The notes below the pieces were generated by a model. The model did not search any database and was not told the origin of the DNA. It saw nothing but the letters and a program-made list of their open reading frames with translations. The position numbers were made by a program, and so were the translations under genes. DNA of 29,101 nucleotides from a virus. The DNA lies in the IMG/VR virus record IMGVR_UViG_3300046009_005091, positions 1 through 29,101 of that record; one strand, written 5' to 3'. This document shows positions 8,901-24,372 of this stretch, piece by piece. Position 1 is the first letter of the stretch, and every line of letters begins with the position of its first letter.

Positions 8901-11900
8901 TATTCCAGCTAGCACACAATTTGAAATTTCAACAACACCGGGCGGTTCACCGTTAGCATTAACGCTTTCACCACAAGCTGGTAACTCGACTACTTATGGG
9001 GTTATGCGAGCAATTATTAGTCCAAATACATCAACTAACACTAACGTAATGACTACAACCTCTATAGCAGTTACTGCAACTACTACTGGAACTAACGTAA
9101 TTACTTGTGCAAATTCATCAAAATTTGCAATCGGTCAACCAGTTGTGTTTAGTGGCGAATTAGGCGGATTAGTTGCTAATACCGTTTACTATGTATTAAC
9201 AATACCTACTTCAACAACATTTACTGTGTCTGCTGCATCAGGTGGGGTAACATTTGCGTTAACTTCTGCAACAGGCAGTATTACTGTTCAGCCGTCAACT
9301 GCAGGGTTGTCAATTAACCAACCAATATCTTTCTCTAACGCATCAACTCCGTTAACTATTTCATCTACTACAGTTAGTACAAATTTATTAACAATGAATG
9401 CAATTGCAGTTACCGCCACAACAATCACAACTAATGTTATTACTTGTTCAAGTACTTCTACATTAGTTGCTGGGATGCCTGTTGTATTTGATGGTAACTT
9501 AGGAAATTTAATATCAGGCACTGTATATTACATTGCTTCAATTGTGTCTTCTAACACATTTACTGTTAGTTCAACTTTTAATGGTTCAGTATTTGTATTA
9601 GCAACTGCAAGTGGTGCAATTAACGTTTATTCTGCTACAACTAATCTAGCAGTAAATCAACCAATTGTATTCTCAGGTACTACATTTGGTAATATTGTAG
9701 CTGGCACAACATATTATGTTGCTAGTGTTCCATCATCAACGACCTTTACTGTATCGGCATCGATCAACGGATCTACATTTGTAGTAAGTACTGCAGCAGG
9801 TACAATGACTGGAAGTTTATCAACGTTTGGGGGTATTGTTGCTGGTATAACTTATTATATTCAAAGTATCCCAACGTTAACCCAATTTACAGTAAGTGCA
9901 ACATACGGCGGTATACCGTTTATGTTAACAAACTTTAATGGTTCGATGACTGGTAATATTATGCCGTCGATACAATCAGTAGCAGTTTCAAATACAAATG
10001 TTACCGGTAACGTATTAACGACTGCAACCATTGCAGTGACAAATACTACTGCAACTACTAACGTGATTACATGTACTAGTACATCAACATTAACTATTGG
10101 TCAACCGGTTGTGTTTAGTGCTGCATTAGGCGGACTGATTGCGAACACAACTTACTATGTATTAACAATCCCGAGTACAACAACATTTACAGTGTCTACT
10201 GTAATTTACGGATCTGTATATGCATTAAGTACTGCTGTCGGTACTATTAATGTTCAACAATCAGTTGCAAATTTTACTGTTAACCAAGCAATTGTATTTA
10301 CTGGTACAACATTTGGTAATATTAATCCTAACGTTGCGTATTATATATTTTCAATTTTATCGCCAACTACATTTACTGTTGCTCAATCGCTTAATGCTTC
10401 TCAATTTGTATTAACAACTACAAGCGGTACTATGTATGCAAATACAGTTGCAACTCAAATCTTAACAGTAGGTAATACTAATACTAGTAACCAACTTACT
10501 ACAATGAATATTGCTGGCACACAATCATCAGCAGGTACAAACGTTCTTACTGTAACTAGCACATTCTTTTTTACTGTTGGTATGCCTGTAGTATTTGATA
10601 CTGCAATTGGCGGTATTACGATCGGGACTATTTATTATGTACAAAGTATCCCAACTGCACAACAATTTACAGTTTCATTATGGCCAAATGGTCCACAGGT
10701 GATTTTGTCAACATCAACAACTGGCTTTGGTGTTCGTCAAGCAGTTACTAATTTGATAATTAACCAACCAGTGGTATTTAGTGGTATTACATTTGGTAAC
10801 ATTGTTGCAGGTACAACATATTATGTTCAAAGTATTGCATCGTCAAGTATATTTTGTGTTTCGGCAGCACCAAATGGTTCACAATTTGGGTTATCAACTA
10901 CTAGCGGTACAATGTATTATACTCCGTTATCGACTAATGTTACTGCAATTGATGCAATTGTTGCAACTCCTATCGCAGTAACTGCAACAACTTCTGCTAC
11001 CGGATTAGTTACTTGCGCAAGCACAAGTAGACTTGCAATCGGTCAAGCAATAGTGTTTAGTGGTGCATTAGGTGGTTTACTTGCTAATACCGTTTACTAT
11101 GTATTAACAATTCCAAGTGCATTGACGTTTTCTGTATCGACTACACCAGTAAGCGGTACACTAGTATTAAGCGGATCAACAACAGTAAATATTAACCAAG
11201 TTTTATTATCTGATGCAACTGGCAGTATTAATGTTCAACAATCGACTGCTAACTTAGCTGTCGGTCAACCTGTTATATTAACATCTCCGTATGCAGCAGT
11301 AACAGTGTCAAATACAACTACTAGTACTAATGTGATTACAACTGCATCGATTGCAGTGTCTGCAACTTCATCAGTTAACAATTATATTACTGCTACAAGT
11401 ACATCTACATTAACAATTAACCAACCGGTTGTGTTTAGTGGTGCATTAGGAAATTTAGTTTCTGCAACTGTATATTATGTTGCAAGCATTCCAAGTTCTA
11501 CACAATTTTCAGTAAGTTTAGTAATTAACGGGTCGACTGTTACATTAACGACTGCGTCTGGAAGTATTAATGTTCAACAAGCTACTACTGGATTAGTTGT
11601 TAATCAACCGATTGTGTTTAGCGGAACTGCATTTGGTAATATAGTATCAGGTACAACATATTATATCCAAAGTATTGCATCTAATACAACATTTACTATC
11701 TCTGCTTCATACAACGGTGCGGTATTTGCATTAACTACTGCAAATGGATCATTAACTAGTACATTTACAGGGTTTGGCGGATTAGCTGTTAATACAATCT
11801 ATTACATTCAAAGTATTCCAAGTTTAACTAGCGTTATTCTTTCAAATATTTTAGGTTCGGCAACTACAACAACATTGAATGCAACAACTACTATTTTAAC

Positions 11901-14877
11901 AGCAGGCACAGGGTCATTAAATGCTACAGTAATTACTCCTGTTCCAACAATGACTATATCCAATACAACTACTACTACTAACGTGTTTACAACTGCTACT
12001 GTAGTAGTATCTGCAACTACAACAGGAACTAACATTATTACGTGTAATAGTACCTCGTCATTAGTATATGGTCAACCAGTTGTGTTTAGTGCTGCATTAG
12101 GCGGATTGTCAACTACTACAGTGTATTATGTATTGAATATTTTAAGTACGACAACATTTACTGTTTCTACAAGTTATGGCGGTACGCAATTTGCATTAAC
12201 AACTGCTGCCGGTAGTTCTAATTTGCAAGCAGCAACGACTAACTTAGTTATTGGACAACCGATAGTGTTCTTTGGTCAAGTATTTGGCAATCCTACACAA
12301 CTTATTACATACTATGTTAACTCAATTGTTAGTACTACAACATTTACAGTTTCATCTGTACAATACTACGGGTACTCTGGTACATCACTTAGTTTATCTA
12401 CTACAAGTGGTAACATGACTGCAGTTTATGGACCGATACAAACACCGTTAATTGCAAATACCGGTAGTAATTATATGACAACACAACCAATAACTGTAAC
12501 ACAAACATCGGTTGCTGGTACAAACTTAATTACGTGTACGAACACTTATATGTTAGGTGTTGGTCAACCAGTTGTGTTTAGTGCAGGACTAGGCGGTTTA
12601 GCTGCCAATGTAATATACTACGTTACAAGTATTCCGTCGGCCTTTACATTCTCTGTGTCAATATATTCAAATGGACCAACATATTCATTAACATATGCAA
12701 CTGGTTCTATGACACTAAATCAAGCAGTTACTAACCTATGGTTAGGACAACCAATTGTATTTGGTAGTGATATTGCTGGGAAAACAGTATTTGGTAATAT
12801 CTTAACTAGTACCGTTTATTATGTACAGTCATTATTTTCAACTACTGCATTCTATGTATCAACATCGCCGAATGGTTCAGTTTATGCTTTAACATCTCAA
12901 GCAAGTACATCATATGCAGCACCAATGTCGTATATTGCAGCAACGTTACCGATAGCTGTATCAAACGTGTATGTTGGACAAGCGATGCCGATATCAACAA
13001 CATCTGCATCAGGTAACGCGATAACAACTGGCAACTTGCTATCACCTAGCACTAGACTTCCAATTAGCATAACAGGTATTACATCAACTACAAACATTTT
13101 AACTTGTACTAATACAACACCTTTATCAGTTGGTTTACCAATTGTGTTTAGTTCAAGTTTTGCCGGGTTAGTTGGTAACACTACTTATTATGTGTTAAAC
13201 ATCTTAAATAGCACACAATTTACAGTTACAAATACATGGGGTGGACAGCAAGTTATTCTAACCGCAACCGGTGTTACACCAAACATTGTATCACTTACTA
13301 TTACTGGGTCAAACCAAGTGTTTACTAACTCATTAAACGTGACGTCTGGACAAAATACATTTAACTTGTATCCGGGTATGCCAATCGTGTTTACTGGTAC
13401 AACATTTGTTGGTCAAATTGTAATCGGTACTACTTATTATGTTTCTCAAGTTACTAACAGTACAAACTTTAGCATTTCAACAACACCAGGAGGCACTGTA
13501 CTTGGATTAGGTACTGCAACCGGTACAATGGGTATGCTATCGGCACTACAAGTTACAAACTTAGGTATCACAGTTCAACCATCAACTGCTAACTTATCTG
13601 TTGGTCAACCATTGTATACAACTGGTACTACATTTGGTAACTTGCAAGCTGGTTTAACTTATTATGTTAATACGGTTTTAAGTCCTACTCAGTTTACAGT
13701 TACAACTACACAATATTCTGGTACATCATTTACATTAATTAATCATACCGGATACATGTATTTTACAATGAGTACAGGTAACAATGCAATTGGGGCAACA
13801 AGTACTGCAACATTAGTTTCAGCTGCACCTATTATGCTTACTGGTGCAACTATTAATGTTACTAGTATATACGGTACATTGTTAACTACAACTGGTAATA
13901 CTGGATTTTTAAATGTTAATCAACCTGTATTATTTACTGGTTACACAATTGGTGGTATTCAAGCAAATACATATTACTATGTACAAAGCAAACCATCATT
14001 TAATACATTTACACTAAGTGCAACAGTTAATGGACCTGCATTATCATGGGGTACTACTTCAAATTTAATGACTGCACAATTGGTAAATAGTGTTGGAACA
14101 TCGTTATTACCTTACAATGCGTATTATGTACAAGCAGTTCAAAGTCCGTTTACATTCGGTATTACAAATACATTGGGCGGTAATGCAACAACATTAACAA
14201 CTAGTACAGGTACTGTAATTGTTCAAAGTAACATTTGTACATTGGCATCAGGCGGTTCAACTGCGTTTTTAGCACCTAACCAACTGTTAACATTTACTGG
14301 TACATCGTTTGGTAACTTACAAACATTACCGACTACTACATTACCGTTTATTGTTACTAACACTAATACTAGCAACTATGTTACAGTATCAAATACTGCA
14401 ACATTAGTAGTTAATCAACCAGTAGTATTTATTGGAACAACGTGGGGTGGTATTGTTGCTAATACAACTTATTACATATTAACTATTAATAATAGTACAC
14501 AGTTTACAATTAGTGCAACGATTGGAGGTAGTGTAATTGTGTTAACAACCGTTTCTTCTGCAGCACAAACCCCGGCGTTTTATATGGTGCCTGCGTATTA
14601 TGTTAAAGCAATTATCAGTAGTACACAGTTTGTTTTATCAGCATCGCCAAACGGTGTAATACATCCGTTAATTACTGCATACGCAACAGGTGGTAACGTG
14701 CTTTTAGCTAATGGACAACCAGTTAACACTGATTTTATCGAATTTGATTCGATAATTGCAGGTAACGGTGTGTTAGAAAGAACAGGTATAATTATACCAC
14801 CAAACACTTACTTGTATGCGTCTAGTAACGTATCACAAGTTACCGCATTAGCAATCGGAATACAGGAGGCAGTATAA
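5965..14877 (+). CDS. Giant repeat virion protein: 34 FCCH-like beta repeats inserted in a small virion domain (2970 aa)
   Basis: Probably an extended structural or adhesive virion component. Residues 1-55 (ending near IVVNTNFANRNGADAKVRLA) and residues ~2921-2970 (from NTDFIEFDSIIAG) look like the two halves of one small domain comparable to the 109-residue protein at 448-777. Between them are 34 copies of a ~75-85 residue unit, roughly IGQPVVFSG.LGNLV.GTVYYV then IPSSTTFTVS, each followed by a Gly-rich turn and a TATG strand. I believe this motif resembles the Pfam FCCH domain of E1 enzymes that is sometimes called in phage proteins; no ubiquitin chemistry is implied. Thr, Ser and Val dominate, charged residues are rare, and there is no signal peptide. 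The start has AGGAG 15 bases upstream; the stop overlaps the next ATG by one base. The frame is intact throughout, so the array is under selection. Confidence 0.8.
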   Translation: MTTASKFGAQDLNGNPFNYQQIVAPASNSNIVVNTNFANRNGADAKVRLAATSVPLVSQTVSSTQGLYPYAATSSAASTTIPTIQTLTVSNTTAGTNLITTQSIPVTATAISTNLITCTSTTALVINQPIVFSGNLGNLVAGTIYYILTINSNTTFTVSTTLGGIPYNLVTAYGVVNLQQTTSNLQLNEPIVFTGVSFGGLNTGLTYYVSTIPSSTTFTVSTFPAGPISQLFTATGVLTLGFSVKPAPVNFSSTSTGTAVSTLQTLTISNTTTSTNVFTTASVAVTATTVSTNIITTSSTATLSIGQPVVFSGNLGNLISGTVYYVQSIPSATTFTVSATWGGAQFALATAAGSVNFQHATSNLTINQPIIFQGIAFGGVISQTTYYILTINSNTTFTVSTTPGGTVLGLGTATGTMILGSSPYPSTVSVSSTASTIVAGTIVVTNTTSSTNIITCASTTTLAVNRPVVFSSNLGNLISGVTYYVLNIINPTQFTVSATQAGVVYPLATATGNITVLPQQLLTIGLSTYAANSSTFSTLNVQVTNTTVTTNLITCASTSNLYPGMPIQFLGSAFGNLNLYGNTLYYVLTVNSPTTFTISFSVNGPVYVLSTASGTMWVQNATSNLSPNQPVVFSSGAPTQRMNISNTTVTTNVLTTASIAVTATTVTTNVITAADTSLLVIGQPVVFSGSLGNLVANTVYYVLTIPSSTQFTVSALLNNTVFVLATAAGGITVQAATANLIVNEPIVFTGTTFGNIVANTTYYIQSIVSNTTFTVSSTVNGSALALTTATGTAMTGTFAIPTFPLNIGSTTVTSNLITTATVSVTNTTVTTNIITCASTVSINVGQAIVFAGTTFGNIVAGTVYYVQSIPNTTTFTISATLNGTQFALTTATGTCTFQQSTTGLVLNQGIQFNGTGFGNLTANTTFVFYVLTINSTTTFTVSTVPGGAVFALSTATGTLVTNPPLFGGVIAGVTYYIHSIPASTQFEISTTPGGSPLALTLSPQAGNSTTYGVMRAIISPNTSTNTNVMTTTSIAVTATTTGTNVITCANSSKFAIGQPVVFSGELGGLVANTVYYVLTIPTSTTFTVSAASGGVTFALTSATGSITVQPSTAGLSINQPISFSNASTPLTISSTTVSTNLLTMNAIAVTATTITTNVITCSSTSTLVAGMPVVFDGNLGNLISGTVYYIASIVSSNTFTVSSTFNGSVFVLATASGAINVYSATTNLAVNQPIVFSGTTFGNIVAGTTYYVASVPSSTTFTVSASINGSTFVVSTAAGTMTGSLSTFGGIVAGITYYIQSIPTLTQFTVSATYGGIPFMLTNFNGSMTGNIMPSIQSVAVSNTNVTGNVLTTATIAVTNTTATTNVITCTSTSTLTIGQPVVFSAALGGLIANTTYYVLTIPSTTTFTVSTVIYGSVYALSTAVGTINVQQSVANFTVNQAIVFTGTTFGNINPNVAYYIFSILSPTTFTVAQSLNASQFVLTTTSGTMYANTVATQILTVGNTNTSNQLTTMNIAGTQSSAGTNVLTVTSTFFFTVGMPVVFDTAIGGITIGTIYYVQSIPTAQQFTVSLWPNGPQVILSTSTTGFGVRQAVTNLIINQPVVFSGITFGNIVAGTTYYVQSIASSSIFCVSAAPNGSQFGLSTTSGTMYYTPLSTNVTAIDAIVATPIAVTATTSATGLVTCASTSRLAIGQAIVFSGALGGLLANTVYYVLTIPSALTFSVSTTPVSGTLVLSGSTTVNINQVLLSDATGSINVQQSTANLAVGQPVILTSPYAAVTVSNTTTSTNVITTASIAVSATSSVNNYITATSTSTLTINQPVVFSGALGNLVSATVYYVASIPSSTQFSVSLVINGSTVTLTTASGSINVQQATTGLVVNQPIVFSGTAFGNIVSGTTYYIQSIASNTTFTISASYNGAVFALTTANGSLTSTFTGFGGLAVNTIYYIQSIPSLTSVILSNILGSATTTTLNATTTILTAGTGSLNATVITPVPTMTISNTTTTTNVFTTATVVVSATTTGTNIITCNSTSSLVYGQPVVFSAALGGLSTTTVYYVLNILSTTTFTVSTSYGGTQFALTTAAGSSNLQAATTNLVIGQPIVFFGQVFGNPTQLITYYVNSIVSTTTFTVSSVQYYGYSGTSLSLSTTSGNMTAVYGPIQTPLIANTGSNYMTTQPITVTQTSVAGTNLITCTNTYMLGVGQPVVFSAGLGGLAANVIYYVTSIPSAFTFSVSIYSNGPTYSLTYATGSMTLNQAVTNLWLGQPIVFGSDIAGKTVFGNILTSTVYYVQSLFSTTAFYVSTSPNGSVYALTSQASTSYAAPMSYIAATLPIAVSNVYVGQAMPISTTSASGNAITTGNLLSPSTRLPISITGITSTTNILTCTNTTPLSVGLPIVFSSSFAGLVGNTTYYVLNILNSTQFTVTNTWGGQQVILTATGVTPNIVSLTITGSNQVFTNSLNVTSGQNTFNLYPGMPIVFTGTTFVGQIVIGTTYYVSQVTNSTNFSISTTPGGTVLGLGTATGTMGMLSALQVTNLGITVQPSTANLSVGQPLYTTGTTFGNLQAGLTYYVNTVLSPTQFTVTTTQYSGTSFTLINHTGYMYFTMSTGNNAIGATSTATLVSAAPIMLTGATINVTSIYGTLLTTTGNTGFLNVNQPVLFTGYTIGGIQANTYYYVQSKPSFNTFTLSATVNGPALSWGTTSNLMTAQLVNSVGTSLLPYNAYYVQAVQSPFTFGITNTLGGNATTLTTSTGTVIVQSNICTLASGGSTAFLAPNQLLTFTGTSFGNLQTLPTTTLPFIVTNTNTSNYVTVSNTATLVVNQPVVFIGTTWGGIVANTTYYILTINNSTQFTISATIGGSVIVLTTVSSAAQTPAFYMVPAYYVKAIISSTQFVLSASPNGVIHPLITAYATGGNVLLANGQPVNTDFIEFDSIIAGNGVLERTGIIIPPNTYLYASSNVSQVTALAIGIQEAV
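7162..7215 (+). repeat. Exact 54-base direct repeat, copy 1
   Basis: These 54 bases inside the giant repeat gene recur exactly at 13477-13530, in the same orientation and frame, encoding STTPGGTVLGLGTATGTM. Most other repeat units differ at many synonymous positions, so this identity over 6.3 kb stands out. Confidence 0.9.
13477..13530 (+). repeat. Exact 54-base direct repeat, copy 2
   Basis: Identical to 7162-7215, with mismatching bases on both sides. The two copies lie 6315 bases apart, a multiple of three, so recombination between them would delete 2105 residues without shifting the frame. Confidence 0.9.
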
Positions 14878-15686
14878 TGGCAAGGTATCAATCCCTACCA
14901 GATAGAACAGATACATTTAACGTAACAGTTAGCGACCAACACATGTGTCAAAATTATGGGTTGGTTATAGACTGTTGCACAGTACCAGCAAACACAAAAT
15001 GCCAATTAAACATAACAACAGCCTGCGGCTGTTGTTATTGGTGCGTGCCAGCTGGCGTTCAATCAATTTATGTAGAAATATGGGGTGCAGGCGGTGGCGG
15101 CAATGGCAGCTACTGCATCTGCTGCATTCATGGGGCAGGCGGTGGGGCAGGCGGTTATCAGTCGTTTACATTACCAACTGCACCAGGATGCAAATACACT
15201 GTTTGTGCAGGCGCAGGCGGCTCTTTTGGATGTGGATATACTTCACCAGGAGGTACCGGCAATACATCGTTTATTAGTGGATTTAATACCGGATCCGGTA
15301 CATGTGCATTAGGCGGATTTGGTGCATTGTGTAATTGCTGTGGCCACGGCTGTGCAATTTGCGGTTCAAATCAATATTCATGTGGATGGCCAGGTCCCGG
15401 TCCAACTCTTTATGCAAACAATGTATTCGGAGCAACTGGAGAAGTCGGACACCAATTTGGACGTGCAGTCGGTTGCGGCTGGGTAAATCGAGGCGGTGCT
15501 GCACCATTTAACGGTGGCGCCGGCACACAGTTTTCATTTTATAACGGTTCGGGCGGTACACAATACAGCGGAATGGCAGGGGCTTATCCAGGCGGTGGTG
15601 GCGCCGGGGCGGCAGCACAAAATAGTTGTAGCATATGCCAATGTGGTGGCTGTGGCGGTAACGGTTTAGTTAGAATATGGTATTAA
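14877..15686 (+). CDS. Glycine/cysteine-rich adhesin-like protein 1 (269 aa)
   Basis: First of three paralogs. The N-terminal ~55 residues lead into CGCCYWCVPAGVQSIYVEIW and then GAGGGG, the opening of the glycine-rich domain found in phage tail-tip and fibre proteins. The rest is Gly-rich runs (GAGGGAGGY, PGGGGAGAAA) and ends GLVRIWY. I count 26 cysteines, several as CC or CxC pairs (CICC, CNCC, CSICQCGGC), near 10% of residues. The related-looking Gly-rich adhesin gp38 of Salmonella phage S16 folds as packed polyglycine-II helices; a similar fold here is inferred. The cysteines could form disulfides outside the cell or bind metal. ATG overlaps the upstream stop by one base (TAATG), with AGGAGG seven bases before it, so translation is coupled to the giant repeat gene. 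Confidence 0.7.
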   Translation: MARYQSLPDRTDTFNVTVSDQHMCQNYGLVIDCCTVPANTKCQLNITTACGCCYWCVPAGVQSIYVEIWGAGGGGNGSYCICCIHGAGGGAGGYQSFTLPTAPGCKYTVCAGAGGSFGCGYTSPGGTGNTSFISGFNTGSGTCALGGFGALCNCCGHGCAICGSNQYSCGWPGPGPTLYANNVFGATGEVGHQFGRAVGCGWVNRGGAAPFNGGAGTQFSFYNGSGGTQYSGMAGAYPGGGGAGAAAQNSCSICQCGGCGGNGLVRIWY

Positions 15687-15698
15687 GGGAACATAGAA

Positions 15699-16568
15699 AT
15701 GGGAAGATATAGAACAGACGTAGTACAAACATGCGGATCATCACAGCAATGTTGGGATGCTACTACATATAACGGATATAACTGCCAAGTAACATGTTTA
15801 CCGTCACAAGGAACATGTGTATTTCAAATGTCAGGCGGTCTCGGAGGATGCGGTACCTGCGGACCAGGTACCGGGGCATGTTGCCAATGGTTAACACCAG
15901 CTGGAGTATCGTCAGTTATTATCGAAATATGGGGTGGTGGCGGTGGCGGCGGTTCAAGCCCGTACTGTCGATGCGAACAAAACGGCACAGGCGGCGGCGG
16001 CGGCGCATATGCTAGAAAAACACTCCAAGTTGCAGCTGGCCAATATTATACAATTTGTGTAGGCAGCGGTGGTGCCGGTGGCGGACTATGTGGCGGTACA
16101 ACTACAGCTCCTCAAGCATGTTGCTGTGGAGCTAAAGGCGGTACTACATACATAACTGGTCCTGGATTATGCAATTTTTGCGCAGAAGGCGGCTACGGCG
16201 GCGAATCTAGATTATTTGCATATTGTATAGGCACATCAGTTCCAAACGGAGGATGGCCAGGGACAGGCGGAGATTTAAATGTTAGAGGCGGCGACGGCGG
16301 AATAACAAACGGTGGAAGCTCAATGGGACAATCTAACTCATTTTCGTGGGGCGGCAGCTCACCGTTTGGCGGGAGAAACACATTTATGGGCATGGACTGG
16401 TGTAGTCAATACGTTGACCAATGTGCCAATGGATATAGTGGCGGAATAAATGGGTTTGTAGGTGGATTCCCAGGCGGTGGCGCTCCCGGCGGATTTGCAT
16501 CTTGCTGTTGCGGTATTTGCGCATGCGGCGGCAATGGTGCCCCTGGTGCTATAAGAATTTGGATGTAA
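15699..16568 (+). CDS. Glycine/cysteine-rich adhesin-like protein 2 (289 aa)
   Basis: Paralog of the genes at 14877 and 17164. After a Cys-containing N-terminal segment (VVQTCGSSQQCWDATTY) it carries ACCQWLTPAGVSSVIIEIWG followed by a GGGGGG run, then GGGGGAYARKTLQVAAGQYY, CCCGAKGGTTYITGPG and, at the end, CCCGICACGGNGAPGAIRIW. I count 26 cysteines. The conserved order (CC.W..PAGV, WG, poly-Gly, YT.C.G, CCCG..G, PGGG, IRIW) is shared by all three. The gene lies 12 bases after the first paralog, with AAGGGA before ATG. It is the only one of the three not preceded or followed directly by both a fibre gene and a chaperone; the chaperone-like gene comes next. Receptor binding is inferred from the family resemblance and position. 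Confidence 0.7.
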   Translation: MGRYRTDVVQTCGSSQQCWDATTYNGYNCQVTCLPSQGTCVFQMSGGLGGCGTCGPGTGACCQWLTPAGVSSVIIEIWGGGGGGGSSPYCRCEQNGTGGGGGAYARKTLQVAAGQYYTICVGSGGAGGGLCGGTTTAPQACCCGAKGGTTYITGPGLCNFCAEGGYGGESRLFAYCIGTSVPNGGWPGTGGDLNVRGGDGGITNGGSSMGQSNSFSWGGSSPFGGRNTFMGMDWCSQYVDQCANGYSGGINGFVGGFPGGGAPGGFASCCCGICACGGNGAPGAIRIWM

Positions 16569-18534: not shown

Positions 18535-19461
18535 ATGCATAAAGTTTTTTTTATTAATGGCGGTACAGGGCGTGTAGTATGCGCACTTCCAGCATTAGAG
18601 TTATATTCCAAAGAACACGATGATTTTTATATTGTTTGTGAATCTGGGTTTGACATGTTTTACGGTCACCCAACATTACAAGATAAAGCATTTGATGTTA
18701 ACCATAAAGGATTATTTGAATCTATAATCAAACCTGGTGAAATTATTACAACTGAACCATATCGTGATTACGACTATTATAATCAACGATGCAGCATATC
18801 GCAAGCGTTTGATAAGCAAATCAATAACCATACAGAAATACGCGAACTTCCAACACCGAAATTTTACCTAAGTAAAGATGAAGAATTGCATGCAATTGCA
18901 ACTGTTGATCTTGTAAAAAAACAACACGGTAAAGAAAAAACAATTGTTATTCAACCGTACGGTCGTGGTGCAGCAAAACCGGAGTCTATTGAAATTGTCG
19001 CTGATATAGGATCACGAAGCTTAGAACAAGCAGATTATCTTAAATTAGTTGAAAGATTGCGACAAAATTACAATGTGTTATGCATGAGTGAATTTCCTAC
19101 TCCGGGTGATACGTTTACAGTCCACCCTAAAAATTTAGATTTAAGAAAATGGGCTGCTGTAATTGAATTATCTGATTATTTCATTGGCTGCGATAGTGTT
19201 GGACAGCACTTTGCATACTCATTTAACACTCCGGGTACTGTGATACTAGGAAGCACATTTGCAGTAAATGTATCTTATCCAGAGTATTTTAATATTTGGG
19301 AGAAGCCAGGTTTTAACAAAACATATGCACCTATTAGAATAAGTGATTTTAACGTACATTTAGCTGATAGAAAAAATGACCAAGCATTGTCTTTATCTGA
19401 TGAAGAATTTGAAGATTTATATGCTAGTATAGAAACACACATTAAACAGAATATTAAGTAA
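18535..19461 (+). CDS. GT9-like (heptosyltransferase-fold) glycosyltransferase (308 aa)
   Basis: Likely transfers a sugar from a nucleotide donor, cytoplasmic. The N-terminus MHKVFFINGGTGRVVCALPA followed by LELYSK matches the opening of family 9 (ADP-heptose:LPS heptosyltransferase) proteins, where 'G..V...PAL..L' follows the first strand. Residues 216-232 read FIGCDSVGQHFAYSFNT; D220 and H225 align with the 'DTG..H.A.A...P' motif near the GT9 donor site, followed by GTVILGST. The length (308) is slightly below the usual 320-350. There is no membrane segment. Genes of this type in T4-like marine phages are often grouped with LPS or sugar-modifying enzymes. The acceptor is unknown: a virion protein, host polysaccharide or a small sugar are all possible. 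The next gene starts 12 bases downstream. Fold call fairly secure; exact reaction not. Confidence 0.65.
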   Translation: MHKVFFINGGTGRVVCALPALELYSKEHDDFYIVCESGFDMFYGHPTLQDKAFDVNHKGLFESIIKPGEIITTEPYRDYDYYNQRCSISQAFDKQINNHTEIRELPTPKFYLSKDEELHAIATVDLVKKQHGKEKTIVIQPYGRGAAKPESIEIVADIGSRSLEQADYLKLVERLRQNYNVLCMSEFPTPGDTFTVHPKNLDLRKWAAVIELSDYFIGCDSVGQHFAYSFNTPGTVILGSTFAVNVSYPEYFNIWEKPGFNKTYAPIRISDFNVHLADRKNDQALSLSDEEFEDLYASIETHIKQNIK

Positions 19462-19473
19462 ACGGAGAAAAAT

Positions 19474-21234
19474 ATGACACAGTGGATTGCAGGTATTACA
19501 AGAGGACACAATGGTGCAACTTGTCTGCTAAAAGATGGCAAAATTGTCTTTTATATAGAAGAAGAAAGACTTTCGAGAAAGAAATACGACGGCGGTCCGT
19601 TAGCCGGAATGTTAAAAATTAAAGAATACACTGATAAACTCGATTTTTTAGTAGTAGCACACACTCAACCATTAACAATGGCTGGTAAAATTGATTTTAC
19701 CGGTGACGATATGTATACCGGTTGGGCAAGAAAACTTGGATTAATTGATCAACATTTTAGTGGCGAACATCATCCTCAAGTAGTTGATTTAGGCCATATC
19801 CATCACGAACTTCATGCAGCATGTGCGTTTTATAATAGCGGTTTTGATACTGCAGCATGTTTAATTGTAGACGGAGCAGGAACATTTATCCCATTAGGTG
19901 ATAATGGTGAAACTGGTTGGGAATTAGAAACTATATTCTCTGCAAGTTATCCAGCTAATTTTTCTACAAAATATAAACATATCGGAGTTCGCGGTCCAAA
20001 AGTTGCATTTGCAAAATACAACGTACCGCATGATCATAGAGGCAAACCCGAAGATGTTCACGATGTATTATTTTCAGATCATTGCGGAATTACTAAATGT
20101 TATGAAGCTATGACAGATTACTGTGGGTTTGGGTTTATCGAAGCCGGCAAGGCTATGGGACTATCACCATACGGACAAAAGAATGATAAAATACCATCAG
20201 TGTTTTTAGGTGAAGAAGGTAGGTATTTAAGTAACAGAAACTTATTTACACCAAATTATCCAAATGGTGCATACATCGACAGTGTTGCATTTCCTGTATT
20301 AGATAACGAAACATTAGAATCTAAAATGGATTTAGCATTTGCTGTGCAGCATGCTTGCGAAGAACAAATTATAAGATTAATTTTAGATGCAGTTGAACGC
20401 ACCGGTGAAAAGAATGTAGTAATTGCAGGCGGATTTGGATTAAATTGTGTCGGCAACTATGAATATTTAAAACACTTACCTAGTGATATTAATTTATATA
20501 TTGAACCTATTGCACACGATGGCGGAACTTGTATTGGTGCTGCTAAATTAATACATCATGATAACACAAGTGATATTACAAAACGTCCACATAAAACGAT
20601 TTATTATGGCCCTAATTATTTTGAAAAGTATGGAAAATACGATATTAATTTACAAGATGACGAAACCATAACCGATGTAACCCAACATGAAATTGCAACA
20701 CTTATTAGTGAAAGTAATATTGTATGTATGTATCAAGGTGGTTCAGAAGCAGGGCCTAGAGCATTAGGAAATCGCAGTATTTTATTTGATCCTAGAGTAA
20801 AAGACGGTAAAGATATTGTAAATGATGTTAAACATCGAGAATGGTTTAGACCATTTGCTGGTACTATTTTAGAAGAAAACGTACATGATTGGTTTGATTT
20901 ACGCGGCATGGATAAAACTCCATTTATGATGTATGCTGTAAATTGCAAAGACGGAGTTGAAGATAAGATACCTAGCATTATTCATGTTGATAATACTTGT
21001 AGAATTCAAACTGTCTCAGAAGAAGAAAATAAAAACTATTATAACCTTATTAAGGAATTTAATTTAATTACAGGTGTTCCAATTTTATTTAACACTAGCT
21101 TTAACTTAGGCGGTGATCCGCTAGTTGAAACAATTGAAGATGCATTGCATACTTTAAGAAACAGTGATTTAAAATATTTGTACTTACCAGAGATTGGTAA
21201 ACTTGTACACATTCCTAATAACAGTAAATTATAA
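19474..21234 (+). CDS. NodU/TobZ-type O-carbamoyltransferase (586 aa)
   Basis: The family uses carbamoyl phosphate and ATP to make carbamoyl-adenylate, then carbamoylates a hydroxyl group. The protein is complete and close to TobZ in length. The N-terminal Kae1-like domain has GHNGATCLLKDGKI and EEERLSRKK near the start, DLGHIHHELHAA with H110 and H114 as HxxxH ligands, VDGAG, EAGKAMGLSPYG and VVIAGGFGLNCVGNYEYL. HDGG at 348-351 supplies D349, the likely third ligand. The C-terminal YrdC-like domain has SEAGPRALGNRSI (from 424), HREWFRPFAGTIL and PILFNTSFNLGGDPLV. All motifs I know for the family are present, so it should be active. CGGAGA precedes ATG. The acceptor may be a sugar made or moved by the neighbouring glycosyltransferase, an antibiotic-like molecule or a hydroxymethylated base; some phage homologs carbamoylate 5-hydroxymethylcytosine. 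Confidence 0.88.
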   Translation: MTQWIAGITRGHNGATCLLKDGKIVFYIEEERLSRKKYDGGPLAGMLKIKEYTDKLDFLVVAHTQPLTMAGKIDFTGDDMYTGWARKLGLIDQHFSGEHHPQVVDLGHIHHELHAACAFYNSGFDTAACLIVDGAGTFIPLGDNGETGWELETIFSASYPANFSTKYKHIGVRGPKVAFAKYNVPHDHRGKPEDVHDVLFSDHCGITKCYEAMTDYCGFGFIEAGKAMGLSPYGQKNDKIPSVFLGEEGRYLSNRNLFTPNYPNGAYIDSVAFPVLDNETLESKMDLAFAVQHACEEQIIRLILDAVERTGEKNVVIAGGFGLNCVGNYEYLKHLPSDINLYIEPIAHDGGTCIGAAKLIHHDNTSDITKRPHKTIYYGPNYFEKYGKYDINLQDDETITDVTQHEIATLISESNIVCMYQGGSEAGPRALGNRSILFDPRVKDGKDIVNDVKHREWFRPFAGTILEENVHDWFDLRGMDKTPFMMYAVNCKDGVEDKIPSIIHVDNTCRIQTVSEEENKNYYNLIKEFNLITGVPILFNTSFNLGGDPLVETIEDALHTLRNSDLKYLYLPEIGKLVHIPNNSKL

Positions 21235-21243
21235 GGAGAACAC

Positions 21244-21993
21244 ATGGGAGTATTTTGGCTAAATCACGTTGATCCGATAACAAAATTTGCACCGGTGCTT
21301 AAAGCATCGTGTTTTAATGCTAATGAAGGATCAGATGCATTAATAAATGCGTTAAAGCTGCAAGTTATAGAATTAGAAAAACAAATAACTACTGAAGAAT
21401 TAGTAAGTGAAGTTCCAAAACCGGGTATGGATCCATACCCGTATACACAGCACTGGAAACAACATACTTTATTTTGGGATAGAGAAGCATTAAATGGTGA
21501 ACATTTAGAACGATTTGTAATGACTACTGAGTTTGAAAAATTATTTCATTTAATTCGTAAACAATACTTATTGTTTTTAAAAGAACTTAATTATCCTAGA
21601 GTAAAAGTTTACATACACGGATGGGCAAATGTGCTAAGAGATGGTCAGTGGATTTCTAAACACCACCATCAAGCTGACGAAGTATCTTACCTTAGTGGAA
21701 CATATTATTTAACTACTGTACCAACATATTTAGATTTAATAAATCCTCTTAGAACTGATTTTAAAGACTCTATACCAACAACAAAAGGTACTATGTTATT
21801 TTTTCCAAGTTATGTTCCGCACGAAAGTACAGTATATCATGGTGACGATGTACGTATTAGTATTGCATTTGATATAGTAGTTGAATCATGTATTAGATCT
21901 AACCCGTGGCGACCACATGTATTATTTGATGATCCAGCTACTATGGATGGTTTTGAAATGTACTTAAAAGATAGATCGTTAACTAGTTACTAA
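21244..21993 (+). CDS. 2-oxoglutarate/Fe(II)-dependent oxygenase (249 aa)
   Basis: Probably hydroxylates a substrate using O2, Fe(II) and 2-oxoglutarate. The C-terminal half has the double-stranded beta-helix core: VYIHGWANVLRDGQW, then HHH at 140-142 with D145/E146, SYLSGTYYL, GTMLFFPSYVPHE with H193, and DDVRISIAFDI with R204. H193 and R204 fit the distal iron histidine and the 2-oxoglutarate-binding arginine. 'H......LSG.YY.' is typical of the TIGR02466 family of putative oxygenases, common in marine phages. The first ligand pair is an HHH cluster rather than a simple HxD, so the exact ligands are uncertain. The N-terminal ~110 residues are helical and unassigned. AAGGAGA lies just before ATG, nine bases after the carbamoyltransferase. 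The product hydroxyl could be the carbamoylation or glycosylation site, which is inference from gene order. Confidence 0.75.
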   Translation: MGVFWLNHVDPITKFAPVLKASCFNANEGSDALINALKLQVIELEKQITTEELVSEVPKPGMDPYPYTQHWKQHTLFWDREALNGEHLERFVMTTEFEKLFHLIRKQYLLFLKELNYPRVKVYIHGWANVLRDGQWISKHHHQADEVSYLSGTYYLTTVPTYLDLINPLRTDFKDSIPTTKGTMLFFPSYVPHESTVYHGDDVRISIAFDIVVESCIRSNPWRPHVLFDDPATMDGFEMYLKDRSLTSY

Positions 21994-21995
21994 GA

Positions 21996-22017
21996 TAAAA
22001 GGGCGCAAGCCCTTTTA
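21996..22017. terminator. Bidirectional intrinsic terminator
   Basis: TAAAAGGGC / GCAA / GCCCTTTTA forms a 9-bp stem (21996-22004 with 22009-22017) and a GCAA tetraloop of the stable GNRA class. A's flank one side and T's the other, so it can end transcription from both directions. It lies three bases after the oxygenase stop and contains the stop codon of the opposing gene. Confidence 0.85.
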
Positions 22018-22539
22018 TTGTTTGTCAATCCACTCTATTAACGAGTTAAATGAATCAAATTTTTGATGTTTATCTCCAATCTTAATAGGTATTGCATTTA
22101 CTTTTTTTGCTGCTGACAAGTCATTATCACTTGCTGATAACACTGGAATATTATCCCACTTTAATCCGGTGTTTTCAGTAACTCTATAAAACATTCCGGG
22201 ATTTGGAACAACAAATGGATCTTTAGATTCACTACCGGGTGCCCAATACATGCCAGTTACTTTTACACCTTGCGCACGCACATGAGATTCAACAGCTTCT
22301 GTAAATTTTTGAAGTTCTTCAAAACTAACTGGATGTTTCTTAAATTGATTAATGAACAATACAACTGAAATATTTTTTATCTTTAATTTATTAAAAAATT
22401 CAGTTGCACTATCAAAAAATGTTAATGTTTCGGTCTTAACATTAGTTAACGTTGGATCTATTAATGTACCATATGGGAACAATCCAATTTGTAGCTCATT
22501 AGCAACAGATTGATTTAAAATATATTTGTATCGATTCAT
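22015..22539 (-). CDS. HAD-fold protein with degenerate active site, GmhB/HisB-phosphatase-like (174 aa)
   Basis: The layout follows the HAD phosphatases of the GmhB/HisB-N type: a first motif near 20-28 (LFPYGTLID), a second near 60-65 (VLFINQ), PNPGM at 112-116 and a last motif at 133-144 (VLSASDNDLSAA). Active enzymes have DxDGTLID at the first motif; here F21-P22-Y23 replace the nucleophile and acid/base aspartates. TNQ has become INQ, and the first Asp of GDxxxD is Ala136. It is therefore predicted to be inactive as a phosphatase, possibly a sugar-phosphate binder or structural protein. The frame is intact, so it is not a decayed pseudogene. AGGAA precedes its ATG. It is the only gene on the - strand, convergent with the oxygenase. 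Whether it works with the enzyme island is unknown. The HAD call rests on motif order and spacing. Confidence 0.55.
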   Translation of the reverse strand: MNRYKYILNQSVANELQIGLFPYGTLIDPTLTNVKTETLTFFDSATEFFNKLKIKNISVVLFINQFKKHPVSFEELQKFTEAVESHVRAQGVKVTGMYWAPGSESKDPFVVPNPGMFYRVTENTGLKWDNIPVLSASDNDLSAAKKVNAIPIKIGDKHQKFDSFNSLIEWIDKQ

Positions 22540-22638
22540 GTAAGTTTCCTATCTATCAGGTACTTATAAGTTATCGGTATATCATAGTATTAATAGTGAT
22601 TATTTTTTTACTAAATACATACAATAATGGAATCTAAA
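22540..22638. promoter_or_regulatory. Divergent intergenic region with promoter candidates for both strands
   Basis: About 99 very AT-rich bases separate the - strand HAD-like gene from the + strand fibre gene. On the - strand, TATGAT (bases 22581-22586 as ATCATA) is one mismatch from a sigma-70 -10 box, but no -35 box is evident. The + strand holds the CTAAATA box described separately. No tRNA or other RNA gene is visible. Confidence 0.35.
22611..22617 (+). promoter_or_regulatory. Candidate late-type promoter (CTAAATA)
   Basis: CTAAATA shares TAAATA with the T4 late box. With the usual spacing, transcription would begin near 22623. That leaves almost no leader for an ATG at 22627 but a 16-base leader containing GGAA for the ATG at 22639, supporting the downstream start. 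It is a weaker match than the three NATAAATA boxes. Confidence 0.4.
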
Positions 22639-24372
22639 ATGCATTTTACTGATTATTTTAAACGTGGTACACATAACACTTTGCAATTTAACAACTCGGC
22701 TAACCTGTCCTTTAAAGGGCCAGCTACAACAGTGTACGTTGATACCGAAATTGACTCGTGGTATGTTGGTGATTTTTCTAGTGCAAGTTATCACATTACT
22801 GTAGAATTTGATTCTAACCAAAAAGAAACATTACAAGTTTTAGTTGTTGCTAGACCAGGACACGCAAGTTACACAATATTTGGACGAATTAGTATCGATG
22901 CTGAACTCATTACACTATCGGCTAGTGTAACAAACAGTAAAATGATCCTAACTGCAAACCCAGCAGAACCTGAATTTTCCGGTGCTCGTATAATATTTAC
23001 AGCTACATATTCTGAAACTATTTCACCACTAGCATTACCAACTGCAGTATCAACACCAACTAATGGCGAGAATGGCGGCATACCTGTTACTATTCAACCG
23101 TCGTTTGGTAGCATTTATGTACCAGGTCAAGATAATCTAACTGCTAGTATAGAAACAGATGCACTTACTATAATAAATGGATCAGGTATTGCTATTACTA
23201 CCAACAGTGTTAGCAAATCATTAACAATTAGTTCATCAATTAATTCTTTTAATAACTTTGTAGTCACAGGATACGCTTCACTATCACCGTCTACAACAAC
23301 TGATACGCTGACATTTACAGCAGGAAATGGTGTTTTAATTAACCCTAATTCTTTATCAAAATCTATAACATTTTCAGCTCCGATCGCTAGTACAACTGTG
23401 TTAGGCAGTGTAAAAGTAGATGGGTCAACTATTACGATTACCAATGGAGTGATTAGTGCTGCTAGTATTGCAGATAGTTTACCAGTTGCAACTACTTCAT
23501 CATTAGGCGGAGTTAAAGTTGACGGATCTACTATTACTATTTCTAGTGACGGTGTTATTAGTTCTGCAGGCGGTTCTGGAACAGGCGGATTAATTATTAC
23601 TTCATTAAAAACTGCAGATTACGTTGCAACGCCATCTCAATTAGTTAATGTAGATACAACCGGCGGAAGTATTAGCGTAACATTACCAAGCTTGCCAACT
23701 AATGGTACAGTAGTCGGCATTATCGATTCACTAGGAAAATTTCATATTAATCCAGTGACTGTGTATCCAGGTGTAGGATCAACTATTGAGACTGACATTT
23801 CACTATTGTTAGACGTTATTAACACTTATGTTACATTCATATACGTAGCTGCTACTACTAATTGGAGAATACAAAGCACTCCATCTGTTACAGTAAATGG
23901 AACTAACTATCAATCACTTATCGGTACTATTAATGGAATAGCTAAAGGTAACGGGGCAAATGCATTAACTGCCGCTACTCCTGGAATAGATTATGTTTCA
24001 CCTGGCACATCAACTTTATTTACAAAACCACAACGTCCTAGTTTATCGGATGAAACTGCTCCTGCAACAGGGTCGGTTACTTGGGATTTAACATCACACC
24101 AAATTTTTAGAATCGTACTAAGTTCTAATATTACTACATTTAACTTAACTGGAACTTTAGCGTCGTTAGTTGGATATCAATATGAACTGATTATACGATA
24201 CACTGGCGGTAGTACAATATCATGGAATACTAATTTTAAATGGACTGCTGCAACTGCTCCGACATTAACAGGTACATCAGGTAAAACTGATATATTAACT
24301 TTTGTTGTATCATCAACAGACGGTGTTAACTTTTATCTAGTTAATACTGGTATTAAAATGAATGTGGGGTAA
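22639..24372 (+). CDS. Tail-fibre-type protein (577 aa from preferred start)
   Basis: The preferred start is 22639 (GGAA seven bases before ATG, and the likely transcript start); an in-frame ATG at 22627 adds four residues but has no ribosome-binding site. The N-terminal ~130 residues (MHFTDYFKRGTHNTLQFNNS, VYVDTEIDSWYVGDFSSASY) resemble an N-terminal domain I associate with T4-like cyanophage structural proteins, probably a virion-attachment domain. The middle has two fibre-shaft repeats near residues 255 and 289 (LGSVKVDGSTITI and LGGVKVDGSTITI). A beta segment of the type NVDTTGGSISVTLPSLPTNG follows. The C-terminal ~100 residues (WDLTSHQIFRIVLSS, WNTNFKWTAATAPTLTGTSG) match a small beta-domain found at the ends of many phage fibre proteins. 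It is the first gene after the enzyme island and starts a new run of structural genes. Confidence 0.72.
   Translation: MHFTDYFKRGTHNTLQFNNSANLSFKGPATTVYVDTEIDSWYVGDFSSASYHITVEFDSNQKETLQVLVVARPGHASYTIFGRISIDAELITLSASVTNSKMILTANPAEPEFSGARIIFTATYSETISPLALPTAVSTPTNGENGGIPVTIQPSFGSIYVPGQDNLTASIETDALTIINGSGIAITTNSVSKSLTISSSINSFNNFVVTGYASLSPSTTTDTLTFTAGNGVLINPNSLSKSITFSAPIASTTVLGSVKVDGSTITITNGVISAASIADSLPVATTSSLGGVKVDGSTITISSDGVISSAGGSGTGGLIITSLKTADYVATPSQLVNVDTTGGSISVTLPSLPTNGTVVGIIDSLGKFHINPVTVYPGVGSTIETDISLLLDVINTYVTFIYVAATTNWRIQSTPSVTVNGTNYQSLIGTINGIAKGNGANALTAATPGIDYVSPGTSTLFTKPQRPSLSDETAPATGSVTWDLTSHQIFRIVLSSNITTFNLTGTLASLVGYQYELIIRYTGGSTISWNTNFKWTAATAPTLTGTSGKTDILTFVVSSTDGVNFYLVNTGIKMNVG

Follow-up and report, generated by a model that had tools for sequence, protein, structure and literature searches.

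A GmhB-like HAD-IIIA protein with replaced catalytic residues in the tail-fibre region of a phage, a candidate pseudophosphatase

The enzyme closest to the protein described here is GmhB, the heptose-1,7-bisphosphate 7-phosphatase, represented by the structures 3l8h, 2gmw and 3l8e. GmhB has a zinc-binding Cys loop, and the HAD motifs sit at the ends of strands. Pseudoenzymes are familiar from cellular signalling, and no description of a phage HAD pseudoenzyme was found among the titles and abstract openings surveyed. A described gene neighbourhood with which our locus can be compared is the host recognition cluster of pelagimyophages and cyanomyophages, which, according to the main text of PMC7029224, is a tail-fibre region by the neck gene gp14 that holds glycosyltransferases and LPS genes including rfaE; 'haloacid' and 'phosphatase' have 0 occurrences in that main text. 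Synechococcus phage S-SSM7 (GU071098) resembles the loci described below in having a phrog_8954-type gene, a carbamoyltransferase, an HldE-like kinase, a nucleotidyltransferase and an HldD-like epimerase, but there is no member of the HAD family in the 17.8-kb stretch examined. One gene of S-SSM7, SSSM7_130 (L029, 15468-15803), is annotated as 'phosphoheptose isomerase', a label that looks wrong; its sole NCBIfam match at E ≤ 0.01 is TIGR01689, a capsule biosynthesis phosphatase model, with an E value of 8.5e-6 and a score below the cut-off.

The window, that is, the whole stretch of DNA that was analysed, is a linear virus record of 29 kb (29,101 nucleotides). The putative pseudo-HAD-IIIA gene, assigned by profile and predicted fold, lies on its minus strand at 22539..22015 and consists of a frame of 174 aa that is open from ATG to stop, so that the sequence-only reading, which took the frame to be intact, was right in this. 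AGGAA, a ribosome-binding-like sequence, is found six bases before the ATG (22546..22550, minus strand). The same reading had also given the gene its own minus-strand expression, which the sequence signals do not show: the ribosome-binding sequence is good, but a promoter scan found 2 sigma-70-like sites, fewer than the 4.6 in shuffles. In a scan for late promoters TATAAATA, with at most one mismatch, was present before 28 of 60 HAD starts; shuffles gave about 22 and random windows 8.

The window protein (P0001) matches the GmhB model PRK08942 with an E value of 1.1e-7 and the HAD-IIIA model TIGR01662 with an E value of 7.7e-6, and its scores of 31.6 and 26.1 bits do not reach the curated cut-offs of 178 and 44.6 bits, respectively. 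The family was gathered from viral contigs; ten aligned relatives are 42-99% identical to the window protein, and all 11 aligned members matched both models at E ≤ 0.01. Because of these E values and because 11 of 11 members match both models, it is unlikely that the resemblance to HAD-IIIA arose by chance. A profile made from the 11 members reached GmhB structures in PDB with an E value of 5e-4. The AF2 model built on the 11-row alignment had a pLDDT of 85.4 and a pTM of 0.84 (an earlier model from 3 rows, with a pLDDT of 54, was not used), and its best match in PDB was GmhB 3l8h (Foldseek E 4.8e-10); VIA-align gave a Z of 18.0 with this structure, with an rmsd of 2.8 over 160 residues, and a Z of 17.9 with both 2gmw and 3l8e. 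Thus, the predicted model has the HAD superfamily fold that had been proposed for this protein, and a fold of another kind was not obtained. The predicted fold, the motif order and the profile match of the window protein are all like those of GmhB, and homology to HAD-IIIA and GmhB is supported without the curated scores being reached. The protein differs from the GmhB structures, to which it is 16-17% identical, in lacking the D-x-D, the motif III Lys, the GD Asp and Cys.

Other searches added little to this assignment. No PHROGs profile matched more than one of the 11 members at E 0.1, and Pfam profiles gave a sub-threshold PNK3P match alone. Among genome contigs 148 stretches fit a pattern, none of them being a relative by tblastn, and therefore there is no cellular ancestor at tblastn sensitivity. 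The fold search in BFVD gave 11 matches at E ≤ 0.001, the best of which, A0A8S5VTB8 (7.9e-7), has no name. When family members were compared with phage records by tblastn, MH319759 was found along with weak matches, mostly to human-gut or unannotated records.

The window protein has none of the HAD phosphatase motifs D-x-D, [ST]-[ND]-Q, motif III Lys and GDxxxD. When it was aligned to intact phage relatives, both by profile and in a joint multiple alignment, F21-P22-Y23 (22471..22479) fell on the catalytic D-R-D; I63-N64-Q65 (22345..22353) took the place of motif II with I63 on the Ser/Thr; V111-P112-N113 (22201..22209) took the place of K-P-N with V111 on the motif III Lys; and S135-A136...D140 (22120..22137, all on the minus strand) took the place of G-D-x-x-x-D with A136 on the GD Asp and with D140, the second Asp, retained. 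F21, Y23, I63-N64-Q65 and A136 are therefore where they had been placed from the letters alone, and the alignments put three of them on the two Asp of D-x-D and on the GD Asp. In the AF2 model predicted strands end at 17-20, 58-64 and 132-135, and F21-Y23, I63-Q65 and A136 are at or just after these ends; the overlay on GmhB is thus one of sequence alignment and strand positions and not a residue-level superposition. There is no zinc loop in the window protein because it has no Cys at all. The intact phage HAD-IIIA relatives (MH319759, which is L027, L030-L034, L112 and others) are mostly at the same place beside phrog_8954 and the carbamoyltransferase, they start with M[GNS]R[YF], and 18 of 18 have P-N-x-G-M. 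Unlike the window protein, they keep DRDG, K111, G135-D136 and D140 (18/18), and Ser/Thr at position 63 (16/18). It is very improbable, then, that this is an ordinary active GmhB-type phosphatase that was misread at first: the profile matches to GmhB models are what such an enzyme would give, but the protein lacks the D-x-D Asp pair, the Lys and the GD Asp, and it scores far under the curated cut-offs.

Homologues were surveyed to see if the substitutions are shared, and the substitutions themselves are conserved, in 13 distinct F-P-[FYW] sequences that form one clade. All homologues from the family search that hold residue 21 have F-P there (13 of 14 loci; L022 is without that part), and the F-P-x relatives are metagenomic contigs throughout, with no isolate. 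In the 13 F-P-x sequences positions 21 and 22 are F and P, by which the class is defined, and position 23 is aromatic (F, Y or W) in every one. The motif II Ser/Thr is I, L, V or M in 13/13, with the N and Q retained; V replaces the motif III Lys in 12 sequences and T in the other; and in motif IV the G at 135 is S in 13/13, while the position of the first Asp (136) drifts and is Asp in 1/13. Residues 66-67 are F-K and residue 99 is W. N64, Q65, P112, N113, G115, M116 and D140 are invariant in 13/13, and therefore the pocket is not eroding, which is what would be seen if the protein were still an enzyme, using other chemistry or a relocated catalytic residue. We consider this improbable since a carboxylate is at neither D-x-D position and the Lys is lost. 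An alternative Asp at the nucleophile position was looked for and there was none; D28 is invariant in the 13 F-P-x sequences, but it is no new nucleophile because 16 of 18 intact members likewise have an acidic residue there.

Ten of ten codon comparisons, eight within the F-P-x clade and two in x-L-F (the class with L-F at positions 22-23), gave dN/dS values of 0.03-0.33, with dS saturated in some; for the pair L025-L026 dS was 0.72 and dN was 0.07. Full-length members that are as little as 42% identical still have open frames. Thus, purifying selection acts on the gene, and the replacements, not merely the fold, are conserved. These results bear on whether the gene is a decaying pseudogene caught before breaking. 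In favour of this, its catalytic residues have been lost and damage is apparent in two related copies, namely, a shortened intact-type copy in L067 and L002, in which homology ends at residue 132; but the open frames, a dN/dS well below 1 in all ten pairs and the fixation of the substituted residues make decay very improbable. The proposal that the protein is kept and apparently non-catalytic agrees with both the fixed replacements and the purifying selection.

The family is graded with respect to the active site. Among 61 distinct sequences (the tally leaves out L002, the L067 fragment, L005 and L028) there are 18 intact DRDG, 3 D-L-N, 8 D-R-deletion, one E-L-P, 18 x-L-F and 13 F-P-x sequences. 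In the D-R-deletion group (n=8) Q is replaced by E, K by M and the second Asp of motif IV by Asn, and the x-L-F group (n=18) has F at position 23 in 18/18 and retains the Lys in 17. In a tree made without the active-site columns, from which L001, L002 and the L067 fragment were left out, F-P-x is one clade with support of 100/100 (12 rows) and is sister to x-L-F (99/87); in the same tree D-R-deletion and E-L-P are placed beside the intact group and D-L-N within it. Three changes are needed on the tree; the AU test does not reject a topology in which the altered rows all form a single clade (p 0.115), and because of this we do not claim repeated loss. In the L067 record a full-length D-R-deletion HAD is in tandem with an intact-type copy (L117, 2509-3258 and 3400-3837, minus strand), and in the intact-type copy, which is shortened, homology ends soon after motif II. 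Near position 530 of L002 and L014 homology to the window stops inside the HAD gene, at residue 132; the stretch beyond this break has a tail-fibre-like reading, and the break is a recombination junction or an assembly error.

The neighbourhood in the window has tail-fibre and tail-fibre-assembly proteins, the phrog_8954 protein (18535..19461, plus strand) and a Nol-like carbamoyltransferase (19474..21234, plus strand), the latter two being the syntenic partners of the HAD gene. A 2OG-Fe(II) oxygenase (21244..21993, plus strand) is its convergent neighbour, and a tail-fibre-type protein (22627..24372, plus strand) its divergent neighbour. The phrog_8954 protein resembles the heptosyltransferase model TIGR02201 weakly (E 8.7e-4) and has no match in PDB or Pfam, and the relatives of the carbamoyltransferase among phage records are mostly cyanophages. 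In the relative L015 a T4 gp15-type protein and a head-tail adaptor are near the HAD; therefore the phages carrying this HAD look T4-like, and the place corresponds to the host recognition cluster, whose tail-fibre setting, as given in the main text of PMC7029224, is like that of the HAD loci.

Neighbour loci were fetched via phrog_8954 alone, and the counts in this paragraph are for the best 80 of 347. A HAD of the family was within 7 kb in 63 of the 80 loci, and in 30 of the 40 with full flanks. The HAD was at most 2 kb past phrog_8954 in 34 of 64 hits, which is about the length of the carbamoyltransferase gene; 19 were at 2.0-2.7 kb, 4 were further and 7 were just upstream. The carbamoyltransferase accompanied phrog_8954 in 76 of the 80 loci. 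This constancy would fit an altered HAD that acts inside the cell as a regulator or scaffold of the phrog_8954 protein or of the carbamoyltransferase and is never in the virion: the carbamoyltransferase is in 63/63 HAD-bearing loci and is absent from 4 of the 17 HAD-less ones, and the HAD is close to phrog_8954 at the distances just given. On the other hand, the carbamoyltransferase is retained in 13 of the 17 loci that have no HAD, and we regard a role of this kind as unlikely, although it deserves consideration. The HAD and phrog_8954 lie on opposite strands in 51 of 64 hits, and therefore co-transcription is not indicated.

The intact HAD of L112 is GmhB-like (E 8.7e-36), with an HldE-like kinase-nucleotidyltransferase nearby (PRK11316, E 2.5e-89), and L114 has an HldD-like epimerase as a neighbour (TIGR02197, E 1.8e-68). 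In the flanks fetched for the best 80 of 347 loci, the S-SSM7/HldE-type kinase and nucleotidyltransferase were found in 10 of the 16 intact-only loci and in 0 of the other 47 with a HAD; the epimerase was present in 10 of these 16 and in 7 of the 8 D-R-deletion loci. The D-R-deletion loci, among the same 80, lack the kinase and have a second nucleotidyltransferase in 8/8; since they keep the epimerase and a nucleotidyltransferase, the altered HAD does not simply track the loss of the whole cassette. At the level of records a PfkB kinase was present in 13 of 17 with an intact HAD and in 3 of 32 with an altered HAD (Fisher p 3.6e-6, a value that ignores kinship), and the rfaE nucleotidyltransferase model was matched in 13 of 17 and 5 of 32, respectively, never above the curated cut-off. 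These 49 records come from L033 and from 48 of the 63 neighbour loci with a HAD; neither the remaining 15 nor the window is among them, and the L067 record was classed as altered despite its shortened intact-type copy. The altered records with the kinase are L055, L061 and L070, and across the three the distances between kinase and HAD are about 12, 86 and 288 kb. The kinase absences are weak because the flanks are unequal in length and the records are fragments, and when the association was examined by independent pairs there were 1-2 pairs and no power, as the counts share ancestry. The window record was searched for HldE and the epimerase and has neither. L115 and L116, from the large phage records of L055 and L061, have an HldE-type kinase, nucleotidyltransferases and epimerases, and no family HAD in the 7.5 kb fetched. 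In the record of L070 and L114 two HAD copies are about 9.5 kb apart, an altered x-L-F copy at the tail module (L114, 1610-2179, plus strand) and an intact DRDG copy in an HldE/HldD cassette (11655-12305, minus strand). The altered copy is kept alongside the intact one, which suggests that its role differs from that of the intact HAD.

The N-terminus of the window protein is M-N-R-Y (22528..22539, minus strand), which fits the motif M[GNSA]R[YF]. Nearly all phage HAD members start with M[GNS]R[YF], and in the HAD clades with a long N-terminus the motif is followed by a P/Q-rich stretch. With starts chosen by the ribosome-binding sequence, M[GNSA]R[YF] was present in 55 of 62 HADs, in 47 of 100 Gly-rich proteins, a class set by composition (at least 12% Gly and at least 150 aa) and not by annotation, and in 5 of 825 others, the five being tail- or adhesin-like by eye. 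Of the seven HADs without the motif, L027, L030, L033 and L034 carry it at another ATG; the remaining ones are an L067 copy that starts with MGGRF, the L067 fragment and the outgroup L028. Two of the three Gly-rich tail-type proteins of the window start with MARY (14877..15686, plus strand) and MGRY (15699..16568, plus strand), and the third starts with MAYQ. The Gly-rich neighbours in S-SSM7 start with MA[NS]Y. From these sequences we read M[GNSA]R[YF] as a tag that may be shared across the tail module, and it could have another cause; because one HAD family is concerned, the motif amounts to one sharing event and not 55. A HAD acting as an intracellular regulator or scaffold would leave the motif in common with the Gly-rich tail-like proteins unexplained. 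Together with synteny, this motif lends indirect support to a tail- or virion-linked role.

The explanation we favour, with a probability of roughly 0.55, is that the window protein is a pseudophosphatase derived from a phage heptose-pathway GmhB, that it has lost catalysis, and that it is a non-catalytic part of the tail module, perhaps one that binds sugar. The loss of activity and the ancestry in a heptose cassette are what we infer; sugar binding and attachment to the tail are a guess. The ancestor would have been an active GmhB-type HAD-IIIA phosphatase as in related phages, often with an HldE-type kinase/nucleotidyltransferase and an HldD-type epimerase, and its place would have been the tail-fibre (host-recognition) region, beside the weakly heptosyltransferase-like gene and the carbamoyltransferase. 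In the lineage of the window five canonical positions have been replaced, namely, the D-x-D Asp pair, the Ser/Thr of motif II, the Lys of motif III and the first Asp of motif IV, with the D-x-D site becoming F-P-aromatic; because these five are replaced, neither Mg2+ binding nor formation of an aspartyl-phosphate is expected. The protein would have been retained as a non-catalytic part of a tail-fibre decoration module in which the former active site, lined with aromatic residues, most likely binds a sugar or a modified tail protein, and the M-N-R-Y N-terminus may bring it to where the Gly-rich tail proteins are. A more specific version, possible but doubtful, is that in T4-like phages a phosphatase of a sugar-nucleotide pathway became an adhesin-tip or lectin-like part of the virion, with aromatic residues that stack on a sugar where Asp residues once bound metal, and with M[GNSA]R[YF] serving as a docking tag common to tail proteins that are not otherwise related.

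In this phage family intact, partly altered and fully altered versions of one enzyme are present at the same locus, so that the sequence in which residues were lost and the function that was gained are directly testable. A further prediction is that phage tail proteins have an N-terminal tag in common, and the findings hint at heptose chemistry that phages carry and use near their tail fibres. If the lectin-like version were true as well, the series from intact to D-L-N, D-R-deletion and x-L-F and on to F-P-x would record an enzyme becoming a structural protein.
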